A stretch of DNA of 64,000 bases from Planoprotostelium fungivorum. Lineage: Eukaryota; Evosea; Variosea; Cavosteliida; Cavosteliaceae. The position numbers and the translations under genes are program-made. The stretch spans positions 1 through 64,000 of the forward strand of contig MDYQ01000024.1 in the NCBI GenBank assembly GCA_003024175.1, given 5' to 3'. Below, in pieces: positions 1 through 54,847 of the stretch (the first letter of the stretch is position 1; every line of letters starts with the position of its first letter). Below the pieces are notes generated by a model. The model ran no database searches. It was not told the origin of the DNA and saw only the letters and a program-made list of their open reading frames with translations.

Positions 1-3000
1 AGACAGCGTATTGCTCCAGAACAGAGCGACTTACCACCCATTGGTAACATACCAGACATCTTCAAAGACCTCACGTCTAGAGTGCCAAATATACGGACGG
101 TGACAATCAATTGCTCCCCATTGATATCGACCATTTATACAGGTGACTGAGAGACTAAATGGCAGAAAGCTTCGCGTAGCCACCATGTGTTCAGGAACAG
201 AATCCCCTCTATTAGCCCTCGAGATGTTTGGAGAGATGGTGAGATCATTCGTTCCATCAACGTCTCACCTTCACAGATCGAAAGGCAGTACGACCAGAAG
301 CTGCGAGTCGATCACATCTTCTCCTGCGAGATCGAACCATTCAAACAGGCATACATTGAGAGAAACTTCAAACCTCCCATCCTCTTCCGTGATGTCTGTG
401 AACTCGGTGGCGAGACCGCGTGAGTCCACTCGTTATTCGGCCCTCTTTGACATATCACAGTACTACCGCTTACGGAGCTGAAGTACCCGTCGTGGGTGAT
501 GTCGATCTCCTCGTCTCCGGCACATCTTGTGTCGACTTCAGCAATTTAAACAACAAGAAGCAAGAATTGGATGCGAAGGGTGAATCTGGACGAACTTTCC
601 GTGGAATGATGTCATGGATCACCAATCATCGACCACCCATTGTCATCATCGAGAACGTCCTCAATGCCCCTTGGAAGGACGTGAGAGAAGAATAGATTCC
701 TCACCCCAGTGCTGAATATCCAAACAGTTGGTACAGAAATTCGAAGAACAAGACTACGCGGCCAACTTCTGTCGTTTGGACACGAAGAACTATTACATCC
801 CCCACACGCGGTGCAGAGGCTATCTCGTGGCTTTCGATCGAAAGAAGGTATATCTTCCATCCTCGGTCCACCTATCTAACACAAAAAAGGGCGGGAAAAC
901 ACCCATGACAGAAGAATGGGCCAAGATGATGAAGAGCTTGGAGAGGAGTGCCAGCGTCACACTCGAATCGTTCATGTTGGACACCGATGATCCACGCGTC
1001 TACGAGGCCAGAGAGAAATTGGTGAGATCTCGGTGAAATCTCCCCCACTGACTCGTTGTAGTCTGCCGACGTCGAAGATCGTAAAGCGGGTCGTTTAGAC
1101 TGGGGTCGTTGTGAGAGCCGTCACCAGAGGGCCCGATTAGTCGAGGGCTTGGGGAACAAGAGACCTTTCACCACCTGGGACGAGAGTAACCCACGAAATC
1201 TCGATGAAATCTCACGACGACAGGCGGGCACGTCAAAGTACCGGATTTTGCCTGGGCCGATTGGGCTTCAGTTCAAGTGGAGAGAGTGTGGGACCTCATG
1301 GACATTGAGACCCTGAGAGCTGCCACTCGCGGTGTAGATCCGTCGTTCAAGACGTAACGAGAGATTTCATCGTCTACAACGACTGACGTTGACAGGCAAT
1401 TGTGGAATCTATCGCAGAACGTGGATCGATCCATTGGATCTTCGATGGCGGGAATTTCTCCCTGCCTGACTCCCACCATGATTCCTTACTTGACCAACCG
1501 TGGTGGACCTCTGGTAGGTCTAGAGGCTCTATCTCTACAAGGTGGGTGTCCGTCTACAACGAGGCTGATGACGTCACAGGGTTACCCGTGGATAAGTTGC
1601 TCTTGACGAGGGAGAAGGAGGATCAGCTGTTCGATTTGGCGGGAAATGCGATGTCGACTACTGTGGTAGGCTGTGCCATCGTATCTGCTCTCATCATAGG
1701 GAAGAAGATGTTGACACCCGGAGACGAAAGTGAGATTTCCACGAAAATTCGAGATCTGACTCGTTGTAGATGCGATGGAGGTGGAGGAACCGAAGGAAAA
1801 TTCACCGAATTTCTCGGAGATGGGAGGGCTGGATCAATTGACGGAGAAGCCTCTCGACCTTCAATCTACAACTGCCGTTCCTCTCAAGAAGATCCTGACC
1901 GAGGCCCAGCGCAGCTCTCGATTATGCGAATGCGAGGGCAGAGCAGCGATGACCAGCAGAAGCATACAGAGGTGATGACGATCTACAACGAACCATCACT
2001 CACTCACATTTCATCAGATGCTCGGATTGTTTCACCAGCACGTGTGTCAAATGTGGTGGCAGACCCGAGCACAACTACCAGATCTTAAATTTCCAAGAAA
2101 ATCCAAGACTATCCCCCGTCGATTTCGCGATCACCCTGAAATCTGCGCTCCCCATGCGAATTTCACTCCGCGGAATGTCCGAGGAACTGTTATGCGATCT
2201 GTGGAAATCTCAGGAAGCAGAGGTGATCATCTCGTCACGTGACCTCATCTACAACGAACACAGAGTAAGATGTGGAAGCCCTTCTCCACTGCCTTCCTCC
2301 GTGGAGTGCGATCGGAATTATATTTCTCCGGTCTCAAGCGTCAAGACTTTTGGATCGCCACTTACAAATCTCCCCAAGCCATCATGGAGCTGATTCTCCA
2401 TCCCCTCCGTCCCGAGTGGAGGTATATGTCTCGTTGTAGAACGACGTCTGATCGAAATAGATTCTACGGAATTCCTGAGGCCAGTGAGCCAGCCAACAGT
2501 CCAGTGAGGAAGCTTCTCAGCCAACCTGCAGCTCGCAGTTTGTGTAAAGAAACACTCTTCGATGGAAAATGGCAGATCGCCTTCCCCATACAGTCCAATG
2601 TGAGATGAAGTGGTATGACGTCACGATGACGTCATCAGGTACGCATGCACGTTCGAGGCGTGGGGGAGATGGTACCGGCCTGGGAGGCTCGATTGGGACT
2701 GCAAGAACCGTTCAAAGAATGGAAGGTCTTCTCCAGCTTGAGTGTCGACGTCGACGAGAAAGATCGCGGAAAATTCGACAGAGACGTAAGGGGTACGTAC
2801 CAGTTACTGGAACGCTGTGGAACAGCGAATTCCGCTCTACACAAGGTGAGTATTCCCGTGACTCGTTGTAGATTGACACGCCACCAGTTGATGGACTCCG
2901 ACGACAGCTTACCTCCCTTGTATCTATTTTTAGATCCCTCTCGCACCGGAGATCCCGCGGACGATAGCTTCGTATTTTCCGAATCGATTCATAGGTGTGC

Positions 3001-8575: not shown

Positions 8576-10309
8576 TTAAATCTGTCCCGTCTTGGGCGGC
8601 ACCGCCTCCGATTTCTTCGTGGGCGGAGAAGCCGTGAAGGCCTGCAGGCCAGTGATGGCCCTTCCCAAAATGAGAGAATGAATGCTCCTCGTACCCTCGT
8701 ACGTGATCACTGCCTCCAAGTTCATGACGTGGCTAGATGGGTCAGATCCTCCATCTACAACGTTGTAGTCACCGGATGATGTGGTATTCGTCGGAGATTC
8801 CGTTCCCGCCGAGGATGTCCCTCGACTGTCTCGCGATGGCGATTGCCTTGTCGCAAGAGTTTCTCTTGATCATAGACACCATCTCAGGGGCCAACAGACC
8901 TTCATCCTTCAATCGACCGACTCTCAAGCAGGCTTGAAGGCCGAGGGCAATGTCGGTGGACATGTCGGCGAAGTCCTGAGGGGGTTGGTTCGTTGTAGAT
9001 GATGGAGATGGGGGTCACCTTCTGGATGAGCTGGTAGGAGGCTAACGGAGCTCCAAACTGCTGTCGATCCAATGCGTATTGTCGTGCGGCGTGGAAGCAG
9101 AATTCGGCCGCACCCAGGGTACCCCAGGCGATACCGTATCTACAACGTTGTAGATCGATTATGATTTGGGACTCACCTGGCGTTGTTGAGACAACCGAAA
9201 GGTCCTTTCAGTCCTTTGACGTTGGGCAAGAGGTTGGCCGCAGGCACTTCCACATCGTCCATCATGATCATGCCTGTGATGCTGGCACGTAACGAGAATT
9301 TTCCCTCGATCTTCGGTGCACTGAGACCCTTCATACCCTGCGAAATTGTCATCATCTACAACGTTGTAGATCGTCACCTTCTCCAGGATGAATCCGCGGA
9401 TTTCTCCGGTCTCATCTTTGGCCCAGATGATGAAGACGTCAGCGATGGGCGAGTTGGTGATCCAGGTCTTACTGCCGTTCAGTATGTAGTTTTCTCCGAC
9501 TTTTCTGGCGCGAGTCTGCATGTTACCGGGGTCACTGCCTTGGTTGGGCTCGGTGAGGCCGAAACATCCGACAATTTGTCCGGCGGCCAGCCTGGGTAGG
9601 TACTTCTGCTTCTGCTCCTCTGATCCGTAGGCGTAGATGGGATGCATCACGAGGGATGATTGGACAGACATGGCAGAACGGTAACCACTGTCAACTCTGT
9701 CGTGATTCAGACACACGAACATTTCATCATCGGACACATGATATGGACAATGGTGAGATGAAAATCATTCAGAGGCGTACCTCTCGACTTCACGAGCGAT
9801 GAGACCGTAAGAGACGGATGAGACGCCCGGACAATCGTAGCCTTTGATGGTGGCACCCAAAAGACCTCTCTGGCCCATCTCGGTGATGATCTCACGATCA
9901 AACTGTTCGTGACGATTGGCTTCGATGATGCGTGGCATGAGGTGCTCTTGGCAATAAGAGTGGACCTGGGTATGACGTCAACGTCATGAACACGATAGGA
10001 GGGCAATGAAATGTCGAGACGTCATACAAAGTGAACGTATCGAAAGAAGAATTGTTTTGATGAGAACGACTCACTTGTTCTTGAATCATTTGTTCTTCCT
10101 CCGTCAATTGGGAATGCAGATTGAGGGGATCAGCCCAATTGTATTTCACTGTAACGATGAGCACATCCCTCTTGAAACTGTATTATCTCACCCTTCTCCG
10201 CTGGAGCAGCGAAGGTTCTCATCTGTGGTCGCCCGTTGAGACTGGGTCTCTTCAATGGTGTGACATGGTTCAGTCTCTGAAATTGTGCAACTCTTAACAC
10301 CTTGAACAT
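8576..10309 (-). CDS. GCDH: glutaryl-CoA dehydrogenase, mitochondrial
   Basis: This FAD-dependent acyl-CoA dehydrogenase oxidises and decarboxylates glutaryl-CoA to crotonyl-CoA in lysine and tryptophan breakdown. The spliced product matches the family along its length: [87 protein letters not shown] and [20 protein letters not shown], with the catalytic Glu region in the EAVITYEGT stretch. The N-terminus [16 protein letters not shown] is basic and amphipathic, a plausible mitochondrial targeting peptide, which decided the start at 10309. About seven introns are present; those at 8733-8772, 9140-9176 and 9338-9377 carry the CTACAACGTTGTAG palindrome. Its stop lies 18 bp from the stop of the convergent methyltransferase gene. 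Confidence 0.95.
8733..8772 (-). repeat. 40-nt GCDH intron with a CTACAACGTTGTAG palindrome
   Basis: The intron begins GTGACTACAACGTTGTAG and ends TGACCCATCTAG. Splicing joins YHIIR to HVMNLEAV, a junction fixed by strong family conservation, so the palindrome is certainly intronic. Confidence 0.9.
9140..9176 (-). repeat. 37-nt GCDH intron ending in the palindrome
   Basis: The last 16 nt are ATCTACAACGTTGTAG and the next exon begins AT, so the full 18-bp palindrome straddles the 3' splice site. Splicing joins CLNNAR to YGIAWG, as in known GCDH. Confidence 0.9.
9338..9377 (-). repeat. 40-nt GCDH intron with the full 18-bp palindrome
   Basis: GTGACG is followed by the complete ATCTACAACGTTGTAGAT, then TGATGACAATTTCGCAG. 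Here the palindrome sits near the donor rather than at the acceptor. Splicing joins GFILEK to GMKGLSAP. Confidence 0.9.
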
Positions 10310-14929: not shown

Positions 14930-17900
14930 TCATTGGTATCTCTCCTTGCGGATTCCAGTCATCTCGTTTCGAGCTGCTGCCAGTTCCTTCTCGAGGCGAG
15001 TGATGCGAAGAGCTGTCTCCAACTCCTTCACCTTGTCTGAAGTGGCTGTGGCTGGTGCGTCTTCCGTGACTTTTCCGTCTGCCTTCACGGTGGGCCTGGG
15101 TTCCGCCGTAACCTGAAATCTCCGTCAATTCCACATCTACAACGAGCCATCTACCTGAGCGGCATCTCTCGTCTTTGCGATGAGATCAGATGTGGCCGAT
15201 GCGACACCCTTGGCCGACATGAGAAGGAACTTTGTGGCATCTGAATCGGGGTCTCCTCTAACCCTCTCTGCGGCAACCAACTGGGCCGTGGCAGAAGACA
15301 CACCTGCATCCGCATGAGAAAAAGGGAGGGTCGAAAATGGGTCTCACCTCGGGCGAGGGTGACGACGAGGTCGTCGTCCAACTGTTTGGCAGTCGAGGCT
15401 TCGATGAGCTGCTCCATCGTCTGCACGACGGACTTGGCCGCAGAAACAACTCCCTCGGACCACGTGGGGTCGCGGTGGTACACCTGATGACGTCATCACA
15501 CGTCATCGGTCACGTGACCTCCACCTCTTCCTTCGACACGCCAGTCTTGTGGTTCTCGATCCTCTGATCTTGAGCCATTCTCGCAGCGTTTAAGAGGTTC
15601 TTAAGAGCTCCGGCGACGTCTCCGGTGGCGTTCATGACTAAGACGTGAGGATCCATGTACTCGCGAGTCGAAGTGATGCTGGGGACGTCAATCTACAACG
15701 CCGTTGTAGATGGACTCACCCTGATCGCTTGAGTGCCTTTCTGCGCAATTCTGCGGGGGAGCCACCTTTGACGGTCTTGAGGCGGGCGGCTGCGGTTGCG
15801 AGTGCGGCCATGGCGTTCTTCAGCTCGTCGTTGGTTGTCTGGTCGTAATTGTGGACGGGTGCCGCGGCGACGGTCTACAACGAGTCAACGGAGGGGAAAT
15901 TTCATGGAATCACCTTGACAGGTTCCACGACGGGTGGGAGTTGTACGGGAGGTTGCTGAGGGAGGACGGCGGGAGGGGGGATGGAGGCTGTTGCCGCCTC
16001 TTGGATCCTCTTGGCTTGAGCCAATTTCTCTCTCTGCTCTTCCTCGGCGTATCTACAACGAGTCACATGAAATGATTCTACATCCACTCGTCTACAACGA
16101 GGAATCGTCTCTCACCTGGCCTGCTTGCTCTTGATGGCACGGGTCTGCTCTACAATGCGGCTGGTCTGAGACTGTACGTCTCTCGCTTGCTCGTTGATCT
16201 GTCTCTCGAGTGCCTTGGGGTGAGTCAAACTACCCTGACTGATGACTTGGCTCGTTGTAGTGATGAGTTGCTGGAGCTCCTTCACGGCCCTCTTGGCGTG
16301 CTCTACAATGGGTGCTGTGCTCTCGGGGTAACGAGTGACAGTCGATTGTATTCCCTTTGTAGCCGAGAGAAGCTGACGTACCAAGGGTACGCTCTTCTCC
16401 ACGGTCTCCAGTACCTAGAAAGATCTGAGAAATTTCCGAGAAAAATGTGTGTACCTTAGAGTACTGGCCGTGGGAAGCCATGACGATGAGAGAGGCGGCT
16501 GATGACAGCTGCTGTGCCATCTTCTCCACGTCATCTACCGTGGCGCTCGTGTTCTGATGACGTCATCAGCGGCGCGTTGTAGATCGATCGACTCACGATG
16601 AGTGCGAAGGGGTTGTTCGACTCGTCCAACACGGTACCGATCTCGGCCACTTTCCCGCTCAAAAAGTTGACACGGTCTGAAGAGGCTTGTACAGCTCCAT
16701 TGGAGAATTTGACGAGATGATTGACAGCGTCTCTCACTGCATTGGACTTCTCGGTCAACATGCGAGATAAGGCGTCCTCGCTGAGGCCAGAGGAGAAAGG
16801 GTTGTGTTCCATGAGCTGGGAAGGTCAGGGAAGCCGAAACGAAATCTCCGTGAAATTTCACCTCGCGGGCGATTTCGGCTTGGTCGAATGCGGTCGTGGC
16901 GATTCTCTTGGCGTTGATCAACAGTTGCTGCTGCTCCCTCTGGTCTCCCATCTGGTTCGAGGCAACCTACAATCATCACCCTCCATTCCACCCTCTCACT
17001 CTTCACCTTTGAAACGTTGACGAGGTCACGCAGGTAAGCGCTGAGGTTGTCCAAGTTGAGGATGAAAGGACCCTCGGATTTGTTTCTGGCGTTCTTCTCG
17101 ATCTCTTCTGTGGAGGCGACGATGGCTTGAGACATTCCACTGATGGCACCCACCGTGGCGGTCAACGTGGATCGAGCAGCGGCAGCGTTGACATCTTCAT
17201 CTTGAATCGAAGTCCACTGCATGGCGCTGTCGAATTCGAGGCCAGCATCCTTCAGAACGCGAAGTGACTTCTCCAATTTCATCAGGTTGAGCTGCTTCTC
17301 GGAAGGCTGAAGAGTCGGTGAGATTTGGGGGAAATTTGGATTTACGTACCATGACGTTGATGGGGGCCATGGGTTGACGGATGTCTGTGGCGAGGAGGGG
17401 AGGAGAGAGAGCGAAAGATTCTGGGCCGGGGGCTCTCTGCGGAATAGGCTAAAAATAGGTCAACATTTGCGCGGGAAAATCGTGGGAGAAACTCACGGGG
17501 GGTGCGTCTTGACGGAGTCCCAAACCTGAAATCGATGAGTCCCAAATGTTTCCCGCCAGAACTCTCACCCAGATCCATGTTGAGGAACGGTTGCTGGATT
17601 CCCTGTTGTCCTTGGTAACCGGGACCTGCTGGCATCTGTGGTCGCTGTTGAGTGGCCATCTGAGGCTGCTGGGTGATGATCGTCTGTTGCTGAACGACCT
17701 GAGGCTGAGCCTTGACGTGAGCAAATTCAGGCACCAGAGGAGTCTCGAAAGAGGACACGTTGTCGAATTGTCCGGGGGCCGGGGCGTCCCAATCGATGAG
17801 AAGGGGCTCCGAGGCGATCTATAAATAGGTCAGAGGAGAAATTCTGTGGACGTACCTCCTGGTCGGTGTTGTGGGACATGTCTGCGATCTGTTCTTCCTT

Positions 17901-19275
17901 CGAGACGTAAGTGGTGGGTGCCTCCACCAGAGCCGAGCTCTGCATGACGCCTGATGTTCATGTGAGATCATCATGTGACATCATCATGTGACATCATGAT
18001 GATGACGGAAGATGGAGGACGTCTCACCCTTCTCCTTTCTGACGGGAGGGAAACTTCCCATTACAATGGGAATCCTCACACGGACGGGCGAAGTCCTCAC
18101 GGCCGCCAAGATGGTCAGATGGTACGAGGATCTACAACGCGTCAGCTCCATCTCATCATCATCATCCCCACCTGATCAGAGTGGCGTTCTGGATGGTGGG
18201 CTTCAAGTCACAGTTGGGCACGATGAGGTTGATGACACCAGAGAATTTGCCGGCTTCCAAGGGAAATTTCTTGTCCTTGTGCTTGATCTTGGCCACCGTT
18301 GACTTCTCAAAGAAGCCACTGCCAAAGACCCAGATCTGCTTCAGTTTGCACTTGAGAGAATAGACGGTACGGCCGGAATAGTTCTCCAGATTCACGGTGA
18401 TGGCGAGCTTGTCACCTGGACCACTTTTAGTTGGGGATGAAGGAGATGGAGGTCTCACCGGTAAACGTCACTGGCTTGTCCACGCTGGCTTCCAACTTTA
18501 AGAGGGCCTGGGACTGTGAGTACGCGACGTCATATGACATCTCACATTTCCCTCGGCCGTCGATCTGTGATGGATGACAAACTTCTTTTCGTTACGGTGG
18601 ATGATGGGAGGCTTCTCGGGGTCGACAAAGTAAGGAATGCCGATGCGAATGTTCTCAGCGACTCGCATGGATTTGGACCAAGGAACATCGACTACGACGT
18701 GGAGAAGATAGCCGATCTGTGAGATTGAGAGGGTGATCGAAAATGAGAGGGAGGTTTACCTTGACTTTGCCATTCTTGTAGAGGGCAGAGGGGGGGATGT
18801 TCTTTGGGACTGCGAATGAGAAGGGCCAAGAGTAGTTTCCGGCCTTGATGAGAACCGCCTGGGACTCGGGGGGGATTCCAACTCTTTGAATGGTTCCATT
18901 ACGGTTCATCTTGATCTTGTTTCCATAGAGGGTAGTCGCTCCATCTAAAATCCATTTTCTCTGAGAAAACATTCAGCATGCTGGACGAAGAACAGTCGAC
19001 GTCATCGCCGATCGAAAAGGTCAATATAGAAGGGGGTCGGGCACCTGGAAGGGGATGTCTGCAAGGACGGATGTCTCGCAGAACTCTGAACCCGTCAAAT
19101 GGATGACGATCGAGTTGACTCTTCTATCAGTCTTGAGATCGAGATGGACTCTGCCTGAGACAGTATCTCCCGTGGCGTAGTACAGTTTGGGGAGCTTAAT
19201 GCTCAAGTTACTTGTAGACGTTGAATTGTTGCTGGACCGGTCGTCCATCGTGATGGTATTATACTTTCCATCCAT
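14930..19275 (-). CDS. arrestin-domain protein with C-terminal I/LWEQ (talin/HIP1R-type) actin-binding domain
   Basis: Reading from 19275, exons first encode an arrestin fold: LPKLYYATGDTVSGRVHLDL, IHLTGSEFCETS, GNYSWPFSFAVPKNIPPS, GYLLHVVVDVPWSKSMRVAE, GVINLIVPNCDLKPTIQNAT and SYHLTILAAVRTSPVRVRIP. Phase-consistent introns lead into a Gln/Pro-rich linker (17340-17900) with LLIDWD, which resembles a clathrin box. Long helical segments follow, with two NPF motifs (HNPFSSG, SNNPFAL), typical EH-domain ligands. The C-terminal 190 or so residues align with the I/LWEQ domain of talin and HIP1R/Sla2: WSEGVVSAAKSVV, GVSSATAQLVAAERVRGDPD, AKGVASATSDLIAKT, and a final IRKERYQ that mirrors talin's IRQQQYK. 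More than 15 introns occur, several with CGTTGTAG motifs. Role inferred: an endocytic adaptor linking cargo or receptors to actin. Confidence 0.88.
15679..15719 (-). repeat. 41-nt intron with a CTACAACG-GCGTTGTAG dyad
   Basis: The intron starts GTGAGTCCATCTACAACGG and carries a near-perfect inverted repeat of the family, interrupted by one extra dinucleotide, before the acceptor GTCCCCAG. Confidence 0.8.
16053..16115 (-). repeat. 63-nt intron with two CTCGTTGTAG units
   Basis: One CTCGTTGTAGA lies near the donor and a second, GACTCGTTGTAG, forms the acceptor. The next exon starts AT. This is a direct tandem copy inside one intron of the arrestin-I/LWEQ gene. Confidence 0.75.
18514..18545 (-). 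repeat. very short intron, 32 nt (38 nt with the alternative acceptor)
   Basis: The donor is GTGAGATGTC and the acceptor ACTCACAG. Splicing joins TAEGN to SQALLKLEAS within the arrestin fold. Without removal the frame is lost. Using the next CAG would give 38 nt and drop two residues. Confidence 0.7.
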
Positions 19276-19552: not shown

Positions 19553-21346
19553 ATGAGGCGGAGAGAGGAGAAGAAGAGAGGAGATGGAGTGGTGAGAGAG
19601 AAGATACCAATGACGAGGATGGAGAACTTTGTGTTGGAGATGGGCGATGAGGGCAATCCGTGTTCGGTGGAGATGTTCATACACATTGATGACCCAGAGC
19701 TGACATCCGAGAGAGTCATTCCCTTTCTAAACAAGGTGATGTGAAATGTATCATTGATGTTGAACATCCGACAGATGGTCGAAGCGTGTCCGAAATTAAG
19801 AGGTATCGTGGAGAAAGACAAGGGATTCTTTGGAAATAATCACTTTCACCTCACACCAGATTTCGACATACGAAATCACGTTCACAACATCCGATTGGGA
19901 GACGATACCAGAGCAGGAACACAAGATGAACTCAACGCTCTGGCAGCCAAGTTGTACGCTCAGAGTTGGGTTCCTGACCGTCCAATGTGGTCTGTCACGG
20001 TCGTGCAAAATGTCGATGCGGTAATATTTCCACACTCCTTTCATCCTCAACACGATCTCTCTCATCTTATGTATATCATCCAGATCGTCTCACTTTATAC
20101 AGATCGCCGAAGATGGAAACAGAGAGAGTGTCTTGATCTTCCTCGGTCAACATTCTCTCGGAGATGGCATCAGCTGGATGCTCATCACTCAGATGGCAAT
20201 CAACTCCCTTCAGACAGGAGAACCTCCACGGGTGAGTTCTACAACGCTGTAGATCGACAAATCACCTGACCTCTCCAGTTGCCCGACGAAGTGGTCGAGA
20301 TGGAAAAATTGAGATCAGCGTGGCTCATCTTCCTCGCCGTCTTAAAGTTGATCCTCTGCATTCCCATCGCCGTGATACCGTGGCTGTACAGCTTCGCCCA
20401 AGCGAAATCGACGAAACTCATCTACAACGACCACACGCCCAGAACGATCGCTAGGAGCAAGTCCATCAAATTGTCCGACGTCGAGAAGGTGTGTCTCTGT
20501 CGTAGAGGGAGGTGAGTGACGAGTGAACAGGTCAGAAAAATTTTCTCCAAATCAAAAGAAGGAAGAGGAAAGAAAGCTACGGTCAACGATGTCGCCGTGG
20601 CCACTTTTGTGAAGGCGTGGAACAAGGTGAAATTTCAGTGAGAATTGTGGACATATCTGAGGATGATAACAGGTGGTGGATAGTGAGCCGGAGTCCGTAC
20701 GTAAGATGGAATCCACGTACGTCGGTATTGTTATTCCCATTTCAATGCGACCGTACACGGGGGGTAACCTGGGTAACTGGTCCGCCGGGGGTGCCGTCTA
20801 CTTTTCCAGGAAAAATCGCGACGGCCTCGACCACACCTGCATGCAGCTCATCGAACAAGTCCGCAGCGTCATCCAAAACCACATCAAAAAGTGACATCTC
20901 ATCGACGATGACGTCATCTGACGTCACGCAGCTCCATCGTTCACCTGGTTAACTGGGCCATCATCGATGTACTCAACCACAGGTTCACCATTCCACCGTT
21001 GAGAAGAGACCAACCTTGCTTCTTTGGAACATGCTGCGGTGTGCTGACGAACATCAAAGGGCCGTCCAAGCCCATCGCATTACCCCTGGGTCGACAAGTA
21101 CACGTGACGTCCTTAGAGGTGAAGAGTGTGAGACTCGCGTGTGTCCAACGCATGCAGGTCCTGCCGAATCAACTGGGTAAGGGATGTCTGAGCATGGGTC
21201 TCAGCACCTACGACGGAGAGATGAGGATCATGGTGTGCTCCGGAAAGAGACCCGAAGAGAGAGAAGAAGAATACGTGCCGAAGCGTTTGTGCACCGCATT
21301 CAACGAAGCTTTCCTCGAAATCTTGGCCGAGTGCGAGGGACAATAA
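19553..21346 (+). CDS. wax ester synthase / diacylglycerol acyltransferase (WS/DGAT) family
   Basis: The spliced protein of about 480 residues has the WS/DGAT layout: N-terminal PMTRMENFVLEMG, the catalytic-site region LGQHSLGDGISW, a central hydrophobic stretch (WLIFLAVLKLILCIPIAVIP), NDVAVATFVKAW, IVIPISMRP and a C-terminal DUF1298-like half (LTNIKGPSKPIALPLGRQV, GLSTYDGEMRIMV). The usual HHxxxDG reads QHSLGDG: the catalytic second His is kept and the first is Gln. These enzymes esterify fatty alcohols or diacylglycerol with acyl-CoA in the ER membrane. An in-frame ATG at 19457 is possible; 19553 is chosen because homology starts shortly after it. One intron near 20231-20277 carries CTACAACGCTGTAGAT. 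The gene is divergent from the arrestin-fusion gene. Confidence 0.88.
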
Positions 21347-24491: not shown

Positions 24492-27400
24492 CTAATGGTA
24501 TCTCCTGCTGTCTCCTCCTCCCTTGAGAGGTTGCCTCTCTGATGTGACGGCTCTGTATTGCTTCCTCTCGATCGAAAGAATGCAAGGTGGCAGGAAGAAG
24601 CAAGTCAACACCACGATGACGTGGACGATCACGATGCCCATGAAGCACGATTTGTACCTGTCTCGTTCGATCCTCCATCTACAACGTTGTAGATCGCACC
24701 TGCCATAGATATCACCGGACAAGATGATGAGAGCGATGAGAATGGTCCAAGTGCCGAGCTCAGTCAGCAACTTGCATAGAAACACCCAAGTTCTCTTGTA
24801 CGGACGATTCCACACCAGCAGCATCACCCACCATGTCTGAAAGGCCAAGAGGCAGGGTAGCTGTCATAGACATGTCAGATGCGTACGAAACGGGGTATCC
24901 AGACGTACCTGCCACTGGATGTTGGTCGAGAGGAGAACGACGATGAGAATCCAGATGAAATTTCGCGTGATCAATTCGTCGATGGTGAATAGGAGATAAT
25001 CAGGCTTGAGGTGATTGAACAGACAGCCGTACTCTTCTTGCACCTGGAAGAGTCAGTGGGCACGAATATTCGTGTCACCACACCTGCTCCCGGTGTACCG
25101 TCTTGACGAGGGGGTCCAAGGCGACGTGGGATCTCGTCTCATCTACAACGAGTCAATCCTCGTCCATAGGTGTCGTGACGTCATCACACGTCATCACTGA
25201 CCGTTGTCCGTTTGCGGAAGCTCAGATTGTATGGCTTTGAACAATCGATAAGGTATGTTCAATTTCTTCGCATCCAATACAGTCAGAGTCTTCAAGTCTG
25301 CCGCCGTGTTGTACCAGTTACCCTGGTGACCGGTCACGTGACCACACATCCATCTACAACTCACCTTCAACATGGAAACGATGAATCTCGTATCCTCCAC
25401 AGGATGATCGATTCTTCTGGCTGCCCTGGCGACCAACTGTACACGTCATTTGAAATCTCCGCGAGATCTCTCACCTGATCGACCGGTGTATCCATCTCAC
25501 TCTTTTCGTTGTTGTTGACCTCCGACGCCAGAGAGGTCCTGCTGTTGTTGCGCGTCAAGTTGGGCGTGACGTCGTTGCCATGGAGATTGCACAGAGCTAC
25601 GGGTGTTAATCTCTCTAAGACGAAGGAGAGAGCGTGAGACCAAGGAGAGAAGAAGAAATCGAACGAGAGGTGCAAGTAACGCTTCCAAGTCGTCTTAATT
25701 TGCTCCTCCTGGGGTCGTCAGCGTTGTAGATGGAGATTTTCGGGAAATTTCTCACCGGGGCGTAGTGCATGTCTTCACGGATGAACGGCTCGTGCTGTTT
25801 GATGACCCTCCACAATCGATAGACCCAGTATGCCAACGCAATCTGTCGACACGTCGACAAGGTGTCACATTTACACGTCATCTCACCATGCAAGCGATGC
25901 CGGACAGTGTAGACACCCAGGTGTACCATTTCGGACAATCTTGACATTCAAATTGTCCGATTCTCAATACGACAGAGACCAACAGCAGCATGTGGAACCA
26001 TATAAACAATTGTAGTGTGTTACCCTGCAGAGTGAATTTCGTTGTCGTGTGACCCCCTCACCTTTGTTCTGGCGCTGGTCGGTGTGACCCAGATGATGCA
26101 GGCGATGACGAATAGAGCTATTTTGGGCATGAAAGACATCGACTCGATGTAGATGATCTCGCTGAGACCCAGGGCCATCTTGAAATCCGCCAAAAAGAGG
26201 GAGAAATAATGGAAGGGAATGTAACTGATCTCTTGGAGTGGCCCGTTGTAGAGGAGTAGAACGAAGGACTGGAAGTAGACCGTGGAGAACTACCGCGGGT
26301 GAGACGAAATTTCGATGAAATCTCACGTGGATGCCGGGTGATAGGAATCCGTTGGCATATGCGAACGGGGTGAAACCTCTTAAGAGGAGACAGAAGAGGG
26401 CGATTAAGAACATGAAGGCCCACACAGTCATGACTATGTAGTTCATCAACGTCAGGGAGGAGTCCAAGGGTAGGCGTACACCTGTTACGTATCATTACGG
26501 TTGTAGATGGAAGGTACACTGACGTATGGAGCAATCGTCTCCGGACCACAGGGGAACGCAAGCGCAAGTTCCGTTCTGCGTGCATTGACCGTTGGCGTTA
26601 CTGGATGGAATTGAGTGAAAATTCATCGAAATCTCGTCGAAATCTCACCAGACGATCTTGGCGTCACACGTGGAACAATCTGATCCCGAGAAGCCCTGAC
26701 AAAAAGATGAACAAAAATGAACAAAAATGAACAAAGTCAGCTGCATGATGTGTCACATTCGATTTCAACTCACTTTCTCACAGATGCACCTCCCATTCTT
26801 ATCATTGTTATCACACACTCCGTGTCCGTGCGGTGAACACAAGACCAACGAATCACACTGATCACAAGTGTCTCCATCCTACAATCACGTCAACTCCACC
26901 CGAACGAAACATCTCACCCAGCCTTGGACGCAGTCGCAACGTCTATTCCCACCCTGGCTCCTGCATTTTCCGTGGCCGTGACAGTAGCTGTCTTCACATG
27001 CAGAACAATCTTCACCGATGAAACCTGGGCTGCAGACACATGAATTGTTCACACACTTCCCCTGGCCATCGTAACAGTTCCTCGGGCAATACGGTCTCTC
27101 TGTGTTGCGTCACGTCAAACTACAACCCGCCGGACCCACCCGGACCGGAGTGGTAGTACATGGAGAGCCAGTTGGAATATTCTTCTTGGATGACCCACGA
27201 GTTGATGAGGTGACCCGTCTCGTTGTAGATGGACACGTTCTGCTCCGTTTGGAAGACGATGGTGCGTGAATTTGCGTCGTAGGCCATGTTCAATTGCGTG
27301 GATTCCGGGAAAACTCCGAGAATATCCGATGCACCCGATGTGTTCATCCTCATGATCACCGTCTGATTCGAACCGTTGTAAGGTTGGTATGTGGCTGGTT

Positions 27401-32529: not shown

Positions 32530-34092
32530 TTATTTCGCGGCGGGTGGCTCGCAGTTGATCATCTCATCGGGTTGCTTTCCCTTCTTAAACTGTCTGACCT
32601 GCACGGCGACAGCGTGCTTTCTGCTCTCTAGAGGCTCCAACTTTACGGTCTCTCCCGTCTCGATGGACTTCTTGATGGCCAAGATGACACGAACGTCTCT
32701 GACTCCTTCGTCTCCGTCTGGCTCAGGATCTACACCGTCGATGATGCACTGAGAGAAATAATCTGTTTCGCCGGCGAAATGGTCGACCTGTAGGAGTTGT
32801 AGATGGAGAATAAAATAGAATAAACGACGGTCACCTCGGGGAAGTTGTGCGTCTTCTCTTCTCCTTCGATCTTTGTCTTGTAGCTGATCTATTGAAATGT
32901 CATGGGAATTTCATCGTAAGAAATCTCACCGCTTTTCCCGCGCTCCAGCTGAAGGATGGCTTCGCCTCGAGCTCACCGCGAGTACCTATTTTCACGATCA
33001 CTCGTCTACAACGTTGTAGATGAAACTCACCCAAAACCAGATATTGGTTCACCGCCGCTCCACTGTAGCTGGTCAGGAAATTGGCCACCCTCTCTCCTGG
33101 AAATTTCATGGAAACCGTAACGACATCATCGTGGTCCAGATCTCTACCGGGGGTCTGTATCGAATTACGATACTGTCCATCTACAACCAGCCACCTTGAA
33201 TCCCTTGGCAGATACTTCTAGAGGCTCCATACCGAAGAGGTTTCTCACGGCGTTGATCTGATAAGTGCCCATGTCTGGAATCGGTCCCGCGTCGAAGCCG
33301 TTCTGAAGGAAAGTTTAAAATGAAATAAATGTTTAAATCGTTCACTTTGGCTCGGTGGTTGTTCTCCTTCAGGGGCTGAGAGAAGGTGGAGGTGAAGATC
33401 CTGGGGTCTCCCAACTCTCCCTGAGATTTCGTGTTACGTTATGTGGGTACGTAAGAGGCGTACCTGGCGTACACGGTTGAAGGCTTCGACTGTGCCTGGC
33501 TCACAGTGTAGACGGTAGGCTACCATCAGTTTGGCGCCAGATTTCTTCGAGGCGTTGTTGATCGCAATGCAATCTTCCTCGGTCACCTGATATGACGTCA
33601 GAACATCACGACTGCATGGAGATGGAACTCACCTCCATGGGTTTCTCCAAGAGAACGTGATATCTGAGAGGGGATGAGTGGGTGATGGACAGGTGCATTT
33701 TTAATCACCCCGCCTCTAATGCTGGCTCAGCGAATTTTCTGTGGAGCCAGTTGGGCGTGGCGACGTATACAGCGTCGAATCCTCCTTCCTTCAAAAGTTT
33801 GGGGAAATCATCATAGCTGTAGCTCTTCAAGTTGTACATCTTGGCCAATTTGTCAGCCTTCTCTGGATCTCCTGAAACGGATGAGTGAGTCATTCGAATG
33901 GATGAGAATGGAAGGTACCTGTGACGAGGACAGTCATCTCAGAGTTGGTTGTCTGAGCGACTCCGGGCATGAAAGCTCTCTGAGAGATGTCTCCTCCTCC
34001 TACTACTGCATATCGTACCTGACTTGTTCAATCGCGATGCTAAAACCTTGTCGATCTACCTTGGATCCTTTCTGAACGTTGATGGCTGGCAT
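32530..34092 (-). CDS. Gfo/Idh/MocA-family NAD(P)-dependent oxidoreductase
   Basis: Exon 1 encodes MPAINVQKGSK and is spliced to VRYAVVGGGDISQRAFMPG, a Rossmann GxGxxxx loop. Then come GFDAVYVATPNWLHRKF and YHVLLEKPMEVTEEDC, the family's EKP motif. The C-domain has GPIPDMGTYQINAVRNLFGM, where family members place the catalytic-site Asp/Tyr, and an alpha/beta sheet region. About nine introns are present; 32986-33030 contains CTACAACGTTGTAGA. The family reduces or epimerises sugars and inositols; substrate unknown. Confidence 0.9.
32986..33030 (-). repeat. 45-nt intron with a CTACAACGTTGTAG palindrome
   Basis: The intron starts GTGAGTTTCATCTACAACG and ends AAAATAG. Splicing joins NQYLVLG to TRGELEAKPS in the oxidoreductase gene. 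Confidence 0.85.
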
Positions 34093-36207: not shown

Positions 36208-38111
36208 TCACTCGACTGTATTCGGTTCTAGACATCCATTGACGCTCTCCTGCCTCCTGTCTAACCTCTCCCTCTCCTGTCTCTCGAAGATGAGTCGGTT
36301 GTATTGTGGCTTGAGGAACAAAACGAGAACGCAGCCGATGGCGCAGATTCCAGTGCAAAGGAGGAGGGGAAGACGAAAGAGCGACGTCTCCATCTTGAGT
36401 TTGATGATGATGATGGAGAGGAAGAAGGACATGACGTTCAGCCCGAAGAAGAGAAGACCCATGGCCGTAGCCTCTGGAACGGGATAGATGATCTCCACGG
36501 TCGCCTGAGATGGTTTAGAAGGTGATGGTGTGATGGTGTGTGATGATGTGATTATGAAACGGTGAGATGCACGATGTGATGGAAGATGGATGACGATGCA
36601 TGATGATGAGTCACCTCTAAAAGTGCCGGCATGCCTGCCGTTCCGAAGCCAGCGACGACAAAGATGACACCCAATATGATGACGCTGTGTATGGTCTCCA
36701 ACACAGCCGTGAACACCAACAGCGATCCCGTGATGATCAACAGACTGATCAGCTGATATCATCAGACGTAAATCGGCAAAATTTCGAGTTACGCACGATG
36801 ACGATCTTGAAAGCGTGGGTTCGATCTACAAGCGGCCCGCCCACTGCTCCTCCCAACACGCTGGCGGCGATCCAAATTGAAGCCAAATTTCCCGCCTCGG
36901 TCGTTGTGTAGCCGTATGGCTCTAGAATGGGATCCAATAGGACTGCTCACGTAAGTCGAATTCTCCGCGAAATCTCTCACTGAGAATAGAGACGCCGGTT
37001 CCTATGGTGATGGAGAATATGAGCGCCATGTTTAAGAAGGCGATGTTGGTGATGAGACTCTTCATGGCATGGAGAAACCCAACCTTCTTGACAGAAGCGG
37101 ATAAACTTGGGGGGATGGGTGGGCTGCCCCGGAAAAATAGGAAGATTCCCGCCACAGCTACGGAAGATATGACGGCTTGCACGAGCAAATACCCGGAGAA
37201 ATCTTCCGGACTGTTCACGAGGCGGGGGACGATGGTGTAGGACAATAGGGCGGCAACAAAAATTGAGCCGCCACCGGCGGCAGTGGCGGTCGTTCTCTCC
37301 CTGGGAGGAAACCAGTTGGCGGCCACTTTGGGACCTGGTGCGGATTAAAACAACGGACGCGGATTTAATCGAGAGAATTGGGATGGTGGGGAGAGAATTT
37401 CGTGGAAAGATGTAGGAAATTTCTGAGAATTTTCACCCGTGATATCGATGAATCCTTGAGCCACGGCGGTGAGGATCTTTTGATGTCACCGTTGTAGAAC
37501 GTCTCAATGTTTTGGACCCACCTGACCTCCCAGCAGCCACCCGTAACTAAATTCTCCAGGATAATATCTAACCCACACTCCCAAGAGGTGCAATCCAGCG
37601 GCAATGAACGTCTTTCAAAGTTCAGACTCTGTGGATCACGTCGAAATGATCTCACCCCGATGCCCAAACCGATGGAGTCGATGATGTACATGGCAGCGAA
37701 TCTCGTCGTACAGCCAGAGACCATGAAGACCAGGGCCAGCAGTGTCAATTGAAATTCATCTACGTGGTAAAATGCTTGAGCCAGTTTCGAGACAGGAGAG
37801 AAGGAGAATTCCATAAAATTGTTGGAGACGGAGAGACTGAAGAAAACTAGGAGGACCAGCCATCTGCGTGGAATGGGGTGAGGCTCTACATCTGATTCGA
37901 TTTTGGGAGATTCAGGATCAGCTGTTTGAAGAGTGAGTTGAGATCTGCGAGGAAATGTTTGAGATCATCACCTGAAGGAATGGGAGATTGATTTTGTGAT
38001 ACAGGTACAAATAGAGGCGAATTTTCGTTAACCTATAGATTAAAATGAGACGTGATCTCTGAGAGATGGGGATGGATGTCATTTTCTCACAGGGTCTGAT
38101 TTTCCCGTCAT
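36208..38111 (-). CDS. major facilitator transporter, SLC49/FLVCR-like
   Basis: The short first exon MTGKSDP is spliced to a polar N-tail, then about twelve membrane spans beginning RRWLVLLVFFSLSVSNNF. Family landmarks are GWLLGGQILTAVAQGFIDIT, VAANWFPPRERTTATA (the FLVCR WFxxxERATA block), a large GSPPIPPSL loop, and VEIIYPVPEATAMGLLFFGL, matching the TYPxxEGTSSGLL motif of the SLC49 clade. About seven introns. FLVCR relatives carry choline or heme; the substrate here is not predictable. Plasma membrane or endolysosome assumed. Confidence 0.85.
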
Positions 38112-38820
38112 ACGATAAGAATAAAATGTGCTCCTGATCCTGTCCATTCTTCTATAATCGTATGTGATTCATAAACGTGCCACTCTACTGATCTGTTCGT
38201 GTGATGATGGGAACTGATGATCCTGCCGTAGGCCGTTGTAAACACCCAAATCACGGATTCAAAGAAAGGAGGCAAGACAGATGCATTTGTCCATCATGAG
38301 CAGCTGCTCTTCAGCCAAAGAGACAGGTACAACTCGTCCACAGTTGTTGAAGAGACGTGGTGATTTCTCGCAGCGCGTCAACAAGAAGATGACACGCTCA
38401 TGTCAATTCTTGGAAGTCTCTGCACCCATTCGAGACCAAGGAACAAAAAAATTGAAAGTGGTGTGAAGTGACGCAAGATCATGCGACATACTGTGTTGGT
38501 GGTCTCCCTCCTCTTCAGACTTTGCTCATCACACGGGACATACCCATACGGATCATTCAATGGGTCACTCAATCAGCGGGTTTCGTGGGATTTAGGTCGC
38601 CTTTACCAGTAAAGAGCCTGTGCTCATTTCATTCAGTCAGAGATTTCCTCTGTATCTGTGTGTTCCGCAACCAGCGCACTGGTCTCTTTCCGTCTCATTC
38701 TTTCCACCCTCGAACGACTGCAACAGCTTGATCCGTGAGTCCGAATCCTTCATCACAGTTCGCATCGTAGATCTTCTTTGGCTCATCGTTACTTCAGGAC
38801 GCTCGCAACGCAACAACGAC
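38112..38820. other. intergenic region between divergent genes
   Basis: 709 bp between the transporter start and the glucanase start. Short open frames here have no family and no splice support. No repeat noticed. Confidence 0.4.
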
Positions 38821-52540: not shown

Positions 52541-54847
52541 CTATTGGTTCAGAATCAGATCGTTCCCCGTTCGGACGGTGAGATCAGATGCCACGTCTTC
52601 TAAATGGAAAGGCAGATGAATTGGATGAGAGACCCCGTGAGAGATCATTCCGACGTTCATCATGTTGTGTGATGACCCCACGACGACCGATGCTTGAGAC
52701 GATGGGGTTGCGATGGACACTGATGATGGAGAAAAACTCAGCGAGGAGAGGATGTTGGTTGGGGGTGGGAGCTGGATGCCCAGATTGGCTCGCGGTAAGA
52801 TCGTCGGCGCTGCGCCAGAGTCAGATGATGATGATGGTTGATGAGAAGAGTGACGATGATGATGTGACCGATGAGATCATGTGATGTGATCGATGTAATC
52901 ATGTGATGATTGTTTTGAGACGTGATGCAATGGATCATCTGATGTCCATACCTGCCACAAAATTCGACGGTTCCTCATCGAACCGTGATGGTACGGCAAT
53001 AGCCAGAGAGGGGTCCACCTCTACACCCTCTTCCGCTGATGGCGGCGTCTTGTCTTCGTGATAGCAGGGAAATGAGAAGCCGATCTTCTTCAGTTTCTCG
53101 TGCTTCCATTCCGCCAATTTTCCTTCTTTTTTCGATTTGCGCTGAGTGCGAGCCCACAGGTGCAATTTCTTATCCGTCTGAGGCACATGGTCATGATGGA
53201 TGAAGAACATGATGTGATGATAGGTGATGTGAGATCAGGGAGCTGATGATGAATAGCATCGATGATGATGGAGCTGATGATGATGTTGGCAATGTCGATC
53301 GAGATGATGACGTGATGCTCGTGATGATGCCGATCGAAATGTATGAAATAAGCATGTTCACCTTGATGGGAACGAAAACGTGGTCGTGCTCCTTCCCAAA
53401 CTGCTTCAACCGTTTATACATGACCTTCCAATTCGCGTCTGATTTCTTCTGCTTCGGCGGGGGAAATTGCTCTCCCATGATCCCCACGAACATCAATTCC
53501 TCTCCGAAAATGCCTCCGTCGCCGTCCATGTCTGTCATCGTCACCCTCTACAACGTTGTAGATCGATCTCTCACCCACTACCTCTGGATCTTCGTGTATG
53601 ATGGAGGCGATGGTGTTGACGCTCCTCCTCTTCTTCCCGATGTCTTTCAGCGGGGTACCACCACCTATGCTCTTTGGCGTCACACCAACTTCTTCCAGTT
53701 TTCTTATCCTGCACTTTGATAATTTTCCACTCCTCCAGCTGTTCATCTGAGTCCAGATCCAATTGAAGAGCTTCGGGTCCCTCTCTTTGTCGACGCAGAC
53801 TGCACCCGTTTTGGACCTGAGACGTCAATTCTGGCGGGAAAACGGTTTTGGGACTCACTTGAGTTCGACGATCTGCTGGTACATGTCGTCCCAAAAGTAC
53901 TCAAAGTGGACGCCGAGATCGCTCAGTAGCATCTGCCTCTCTTCGTTCAACTTTCCCTTTCTGAAATTATTCTTCTGGCGATGCAGCCACGAGTAGAGCT
54001 GTGGTTGATTCATATAAGAAGGGTTCGAGTGTCCCTGCTGTCGCTTGAACTCTTTCAGCTCTTCGTATTTCTTCGACCAGAACTCGATGGCGTCGCTGCC
54101 GGGGTAGAATGACTTGTCGCTTTTTCTGGTGGAGGTGAGATGAAGAGGGATTGGAGGGGGATGAAACGCTCACTCGTACTCCTCGTTTGATCGCCCCAGG
54201 AGAAACTGTAATGGAGTCAGATGGGTGATGTCGATGAGTCATATCACCATCAGACGAGCGGGATCCGGTCTCGATCTCTTTCGTTTTGTCCTGATGTTCA
54301 TTCAGACGCAATCTGGAACAGGATCTCACGTATACTGCAATTGTCCATCTTCATCGAACGAATCTGATATATCCTCCCTCTCTTCACTTCTGTTGCTGCC
54401 ATTCGAGTACTCGTCAAAATGTCTAAGTGCATTCTCCTCTCCGTCTGTTGTTTCGTTGGAAGAATCGTCAAATTCCTCAGGAGTGACATAGTCCAGTGCG
54501 CTGAAAGAGGGCAATGATTGACTCAACAGTGGTGTATGATGTGATGGCGTATTTGAAGCGACCATAACTGGAGGTAAAATGTAATCTGATGCTTCGACTG
54601 TCTCTTCCGTTCCATCGAGATTGGGCAAGAGAAAGTGAGAATGGTCGTCGATGCTGGTCGTTTCTACGTCTAAAGGGCTGAGAGGATTGAGGTCGACTAC
54701 TATTTCGTCTTTCTGATAGACACTGATTCGAGGAAGAGGACCATCGTGGAGTGGACTGTATGTGATATCCGGAAGTATCAGTGGATCGATCGGCCTGAAC
54801 GTGTCTCTGTTGATGTCGAGCCTTCCCTCTTCGAGAGAGTCAGACAT
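52541..54847 (-). CDS. protein with three helicase-associated (HA) domains, no helicase
   Basis: An acidic, disordered N-terminal half (MSDSLEEGRLDINRDTF to SDSFDEDGQLQYT) is followed by three HA-type helical repeats: EFKRQQGHSNPSY...LYSWLHRQKNNFRKGK, DPKLFNWIWTQMNSWRSGKL, and KQFGKEHDHVFVPIK...LHLWARTQRKSKKEGK. Each ends in the (I/L)GV/IGF helix start typical of the domain. A Ser/Pro-rich tail after a long intron (about 52802-52950) ends NDLILNQ. HA domains are found in some viral and protist helicases and as tandem arrays in diatoms and are thought to bind nucleic acid. The intron at 53532-53581 carries CTACAACGTTGTAGA. Confidence 0.7.
53532..53581 (-). repeat. 50-nt intron with a CTACAACGTTGTAGA palindrome
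   Basis: The intron begins GTAGTGGGTGAGAGATCGAT, continues into the palindrome, and ends GACGATGACAG. It sits between IIHEDPE and DMDGDGGIF in the HA-domain gene. Confidence 0.8.

Follow-up and report, generated by a model that had tools for sequence, protein, structure and literature searches.

Gene structure and domain content

The gene examined here lies in a window of 64,000 nucleotides (nt; the whole stretch of DNA that was analysed) at the start of contig MDYQ01000024.1 of Planoprotostelium fungivorum (Amoebozoa, Evosea, Variosea, Cavosteliida; assembly of 36.86 Mb in 471 contigs). Running on the minus strand from an ATG at 19275 to the end of the stop codon at 14930, it comprises 21 exons and 1136 codons, and its product carries an arrestin fold at the N-terminus and an I/LWEQ (THATCH) domain of the talin/HIP1R type at the C-terminus. 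An earlier note, made from the DNA sequence alone, had described one continuous, phase-consistent exon series; its coordinates proved exact, and at least one in-frame, stop-free GT-AG solution was found for all 20 exon joins. Where a join had several GT-AG options the donor nearest the consensus was picked by eye, and the chosen introns measure 37–84 nt. The parts of the gene are as follows.

14930..19275, minus strand: whole gene, 1136 amino acids, 21 exons (exon joins, translation, deposited PROFUN_04966 and four relatives)
18028..19275, minus strand: exons 1–6, arrestin fold (Arrestin_N, residues 29–162; Arrestin_C, residues 204–327; Pfam, PDB)
17350..17950, minus strand: exons 7–10, Gln/Pro-rich linker with the conserved tail motif EPLLIDWDAPAPGQ (LIDWD at residues 372–376)
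16116..17306, minus strand: exons 11–15, helical talin-like rod with NPF at residues 631 and 694 (Pfam, hhalign)
15914..16052, minus strand: exon 16, poorly conserved spacer, charged then Pro-rich (residues 832–878)
14930..15874, minus strand: exons 17–21, talin R13-DD/THATCH-like tail reaching the C-terminus (talin-1, Sla2 and HIP12 PDB matches)
Exons 19–21, minus strand: Pfam I/LWEQ domain proper, residues 983–1136 (E 4.3e-27)

A Pfam scan of the protein returned Arrestin_N (E = 2.8e-14), Arrestin_C (E = 1.2e-21), Talin_IBS2B (residues 578–666, E = 7.1e-9) and I_LWEQ, the last over profile positions 1–151 of 151. All four exceeded the curated Pfam cut-offs, Arrestin_N, Arrestin_C and I_LWEQ by far, supporting both the two-domain arrestin fold at the N-terminus and the assignment of the C-terminal domain to the talin/HIP1R type through to its last residues, as the note had proposed. 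A single-sequence search of the PDB matched talin-1, HIP12, beta-arrestins, Sla2, an arrestin-domain protein and TXNIP; the best sequence match of the arrestin part was beta-arrestin-2 (8go9_A, E 1.8e-7), and the alignment with talin-1 (9az6) likewise extends to the last residues of the protein. Neither FERM nor ANTH was matched at E up to 1 in the Pfam scan, the N-terminus being occupied by arrestin, and of endosome-targeting domains the same scan showed none, FYVE and MIT included.

The deposited counterpart is PROFUN_04966 (P0001, 1148 amino acids), a hypothetical protein of P. fungivorum, which the query matches at 99% along 99% of its length. It differs from our model in its N-terminal start (19275 in the window) and lacks the residues VASNQ of exon 12 (16967–17006); the relative P0002 (see below) reads LVASQ at this place, which supports the window version with VASNQ kept.

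Conservation of the domain order

A full-length homologue search using words from the first 500 residues (7623 candidates, cut-off E≤0.001) found at least five proteins including the gene itself (P0001–P0005), and Arrestin_N, Arrestin_C and I_LWEQ were present in all five. The note had suggested looking among protists for the same domain order; it is identical end to end in P0001 and the four other proteins. P0002 and P0005 are EukProt Trinity transcripts whose record names, which are incomplete, indicate a complete open reading frame. P0003 (1022 amino acids from a 3146-base contig, about 77 bases beyond its coding length) and P0004 (1020 amino acids from a 3254-base contig, about 191 bases beyond), both with the source label ‘lgn’, are probably transcripts as well, since their contigs leave little room for introns. 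Identity to the deposited P0001 over the alignment was 63% for P0002, 37% for P0003, 38% for P0004 and 36% for P0005, and the arrestin cores of the relatives are 53–79% identical to that of the window protein.

A second search with a profile (8000 scored candidates) found at least four proteins at E≤1e-10, with P0005 not among the matches listed. When the I/LWEQ end served as query, 29 of 5208 candidates passed E≤1e-5 (2 arrestin-headed, 17 ANTH-bearing, 9 talin-type, of which 2 showed FERM_M, and 1 short Sla2-named protein without ANTH), P0003–P0005 not being returned. As each of these searches missed known members, the family count is a lower bound. No prokaryotic relative was confirmed among the genome contigs searched (0 of 109 pattern matches) and no viral relative among the viral contigs searched (0 of 321).

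Within 17300–18000, where a split into two separate transcripts had been considered in the note, there are four introns of 37–48 nt and a portion of a fifth that measures 77 nt; none of the gaps looks large enough to hold a terminator and a promoter. The claim of a single gene is supported by the two assembled transcripts of relatives, which come from other sources and hold both halves. The sequence evidence taken together indicates that the domain fusion is real and conserved. A description of an arrestin and I/LWEQ pairing was not found in the literature searched, including the available portions of PMC8648300 and PMC6912373, and within that literature the contention that no described protein has an arrestin head on an I/LWEQ tail stands.

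Conserved residues and motifs

The polar-core phosphate sensor of arrestin-3, Arg170 (numbered by counting on the aligned PDB chain), aligns with Pro172 of the window protein, and this Pro is invariant in all five proteins. In the PDB alignment, arrestin-3 K233, R237 and K251 correspond to K239, K243 and K255, again invariant in 5/5. According to the available parts of PMC2699828 and PMC5681653, the three arrestin-3 residues constitute its site for inositol hexakisphosphate (InsP6) and phosphoinositides (phosphatidylinositol bisphosphate, PIP2, and trisphosphate, PIP3), and their mutation impairs endocytosis of the beta2-adrenergic receptor.

A linker with a clathrin-box-like LLIDWD and two NPF motifs had also been described in the note, and this was sustained in part. 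The tail motif L[IL][DN]WD is kept in all five proteins, although the surrounding linker diverges, and fits a clathrin box in 5/5 when Trp is permitted at position 4; the strict beta-arrestin box L[LI][DEN][LF][DE] (consensus from the available part of PMC2699828) occurs in 0/5, and the helical rod, instead of the linker, houses both NPF motifs. All five proteins conserve the NPF at residue 694, while the motif at residue 631 is NPF in two proteins, DPF in two and absent in one.

At the C-terminus, the talin KVK site aligns with R-V-R, R-V-R, R-A-K, R-A-K and R-S-K in the five proteins and talin R2510 with R, R, K, K and K, both sites being placed, presumably correctly, by talin numbering. Both surfaces are required for actin binding by talin ABS3, and mutating either impairs the binding of talin to actin (PMC11665552, in the part available).

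Affinity of the rod and tail

Sequence sets for hhalign comprised 11 of the 18 Sla2-type and all nine talin-type matches. Without its I/LWEQ end, the middle rod aligned with talins at E 3.9e-11 and with Sla2 at 3.7e-5; reversed-sequence controls reached 4.6e-3 and 3.4e-4, respectively, so that against Sla2 the match exceeds its control by very little. With the I/LWEQ end included, the body gave 9.6e-39 over 535 columns against talin and 6.4e-27 over 378 against Sla2. When the profile of the five sequences was compared with the PDB, the talin-1 R13-DD chain scored 90.9 bits, Sla2 64.7 and HIP12 60.2, and full-length talin-1 143.3 bits summed over several stretches (best stretch 91.7). Scores of this kind are inflated by helical bundles (another talin stretch reached 1.4e-11 in hhalign), and Talin_IBS2B is not talin-specific, since it is annotated too in the short Sla2-named protein and in 3 of the 17 ANTH proteins; for both reasons we use ‘talin-like’ and not ‘talin-derived’ for the rod ahead of the I/LWEQ domain, which appears to resemble talin more than Sla2. 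The comparison drawn in the note is thereby corrected in one point: the body of the protein stands nearest to the talin rod, and not to HIP1R alone. A search with the rod in its own genome returned only the two copies of this gene (10/10 matches).

In a first tree of I/LWEQ domains (29 rows; 12 of 18 Sla2-type and 8 of 9 talin-type proteins, with P0017, in which the motif was not found, excluded), the five arrestin rows were united at just 41/68, and a very long HSP70 row stood beside the arrestin rows at 98/98, a case of long branches meeting. In a second tree of 25 rows (11 of 18 Sla2-type and 8 of 9 talin-type), from which P0005, P0026, the HSP70 row of contig C341 and the talin row of C454 (both below) had been dropped, the four remaining arrestin rows formed their own clade at 100/100.

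Other I/LWEQ genes of the genome

I/LWEQ matches in the P. fungivorum genome fall on C158, C264, C454, C341 and C168 (twice). On C158, FERM_M lies upstream of I/LWEQ on the same contig and strand (an apparent FERM-I/LWEQ gene), and ANTH is placed likewise at C264:9889-13384, an apparent ANTH-I/LWEQ (Sla2/HIP1R-like) gene (L040) whose unspliced same-strand open reading frames show NPF and DPF in the middle and NPF near the end. The talin rod on C454 continues past the contig end.

Unexpectedly, at G000:C341:36281-40041 (L039), HSP70 exons are followed on one strand by a segment with three NPF motifs and then by an I/LWEQ domain. A rough exon chain gave Pfam matches of 7.2e-193 for HSP70 and 3.4e-18 for I/LWEQ, and 9/9 joins between anchors have at least one in-frame option. 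All nine have several, the HSP70 stretch 37704–38121 is unsure and a gap of 282 bases precedes the I/LWEQ exons, so that an HSP70-NPF-I/LWEQ fusion gene is likely, short of proven. No paper evidently about an HSP70 and I/LWEQ protein was found in the literature searched, as far as its available text goes.

Surrounding DNA

Positions 1–29728 of the window form a large inverted duplication with G000:C168:74001-103954, and the contig begins at one arm. The arms are 98.9–100% identical along most of their length, with two short stretches of 88.8–90.6% at window 13.8–14.6 kb, and the gene's second copy matches the first without a difference over 4346 nt. The duplication is either a real palindrome or an assembly artefact.

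The sequence CGTTGTAG occurs 64 times in the window against 0.94 expected and terminates 3 of the 20 introns of the arrestin-I/LWEQ gene; it is perhaps a mobile or intron-borne element.

8755-8768, 9140-9153, 24679-24692, 33006-33019, 53548-53561: example sites of CGTTGTAG

The palindrome CTACAACGTTGTAG was read at six places of the window. A divergent neighbour gene at about 19627–20515 on the plus strand contains an HxxxDG-type motif (HSLGDG), and its product is a putative acyltransferase or condensation-type enzyme.

Proposed function and alternative explanations

The evidence leans towards a single-polypeptide adaptor that would link membrane and cargo to F-actin, with endocytosis or phagocytosis as its likeliest site of action; a joining of arrestin-type cargo selection to actin would be consistent with the conservation seen at the residue level. 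The arrestin fold would dock through its C-domain basic patch K239/K243/K255 to the cytoplasmic side of the plasma membrane or of an early endocytic membrane and select transmembrane cargo, while LIDWD and the invariant NPF would recruit clathrin and EH-domain proteins. The C-terminal helix would dimerise, and the R13-like bundle would bind F-actin in the manner of talin ABS3, with R-x-[RK] and [RK] as its contact surfaces; the rod would then pass actin pull to the cargo patch, serving arrestin cargo as Sla2/HIP1R serves ANTH/PIP2 sites. Because the polar-core Arg is replaced by Pro, engagement is probably unlike the phosphate-triggered switch of beta-arrestins and would be closer to amoebal AdcA, whose model has no polar core. 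Since the genome holds apparent separate ANTH-I/LWEQ and FERM-I/LWEQ genes, the arrestin-headed gene is no simple replacement for either.

Several observations weigh against this proposal. By pattern, the strict clathrin box, the adaptin (AP2) motif, FxDxF and PPxY (the ubiquitin-ligase motif of alpha-arrestins/ART proteins) each occur in 0/5 proteins; the conserved NPF, being located in a helical region, may be structural; and the approximately unbiased (AU) test on the I/LWEQ tree rejects neither the Sla2 grouping (p 0.363) nor the talin grouping (p 0.358).

The lack of a strict clathrin box would equally suit an arrestin-headed talin for adhesion or mechanosensing, which, independently of clathrin, would tie membrane proteins to the actin of the cortex or of substrate contacts, and so would a rod nearer talin than Sla2 in both hhalign comparisons (3.9e-11 vs 3.7e-5; 9.6e-39 vs 6.4e-27) and in the PDB scores (90.9 bits vs 64.7 and 60.2). 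We nevertheless consider it rather unlikely: the tail motif and one NPF are kept in 5/5 despite the divergent linker around the former, arrestin-clan proteins are mostly tied to trafficking (PMC2699828, available part), the AU values just given show no preference for talin over Sla2, and Talin_IBS2B is found in some ANTH proteins too.

Less credible again is an endosomal sorting scaffold, in which an AdcA/Vps26-like arrestin core on endosomes would use the I/LWEQ tail to bring actin for recycling or scission. The accessible text of PMC3001460 and PMC2699828 describes Dictyostelium Adc arrestin cores joined to FYVE, C2, SAM, LIM or MIT domains and an endosomal AdcA, and the AdcA model is reportedly without a polar core (PMC2699828), in line with the Arg missing here; against this, the Pfam scan contains no endosome-targeting domain of any such kind, and the lipid-site residues retained are those reported for PIP2, PIP3 and InsP6. 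A merger of two neighbouring genes through misannotation or assembly error, with which the window DNA by itself would be compatible and to which the suspicious inverted duplication on the contig might point, is very unlikely and was rejected on the exon joins and on the read-through in the relatives, as five proteins, among them two derived from transcripts of other sources, are continuous across both halves, P0002 aligns collinearly (60% identity, 99% of the query), and the arrestin-rod introns of just 37–77 nt leave little space for a gene end and a promoter.

Animals and yeast mostly divide these two tasks between separate proteins: arrestins and ANTH/ENTH adaptors select cargo, and Sla2/HIP1R and talin provide the coupling to actin. 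As an adaptor joining cargo to actin, the conserved natural fusion would mean that the two can be one molecule, with arrestin as a third kind of head on the talin/HIP1R tail; a single knock-out would then suffice to test whether actin pulls directly on selected cargo, and the fusion may reveal how receptors are connected to force in amoebae that feed on whole cells. A more tentative idea, which we hold to be possible though doubtful, is that the I/LWEQ tail serves variosean amoebae as an exchangeable anchor to actin in different endocytic machines, combined with ANTH, FERM, arrestin and HSP70-NPF heads for membrane coat, adhesion, cargo selection and possibly coat disassembly, respectively. 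If this is true, the protein with the arrestin head would couple selected receptors mechanically and directly to actin, and would represent a class of cargo adaptor that has no earlier description.

Comparison with known systems

Talin shares with the window protein a rod-like middle, an I/LWEQ (R13) domain and a C-terminal helix, and both ABS3 contact sites remain basic here; its head is FERM where ours is arrestin, the rod of the window protein is far shorter, and the clathrin-box-like and NPF motifs set the latter apart. Sla2, HIP1 and HIP1R have in common with it a membrane/cargo head on a THATCH tail, and its length is similar to that of Sla2 proteins, but their head is ANTH and the middle matches Sla2 weakly (3.7e-5; reversed control 3.4e-4).

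AdcA-F, also from Amoebozoa, resemble the window protein in domain architecture, an arrestin core being extended by an accessory domain, and the AdcA model reported without a polar core (PMC2699828, available part) recalls the missing Arg. Their extensions are reported as FYVE, C2, SAM, LIM and MIT, with I/LWEQ unmentioned in the available parts of PMC3001460 and PMC2699828; the window protein, having I/LWEQ, thus shows an Adc-like architecture with a new partner. With beta-arrestins it shares the C-domain InsP6/phosphoinositide triad and a clathrin-box-like motif in the tail that follows the C-domain, whereas it has an invariant Pro in place of Arg170, no adaptin motif, and a continuation of about 800 residues that includes an I/LWEQ tail. 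By its domains the protein is a variant of two known kinds, the amoebal arrestin-domain proteins and the I/LWEQ actin linkers, whose pairing is new as far as the literature searched goes.

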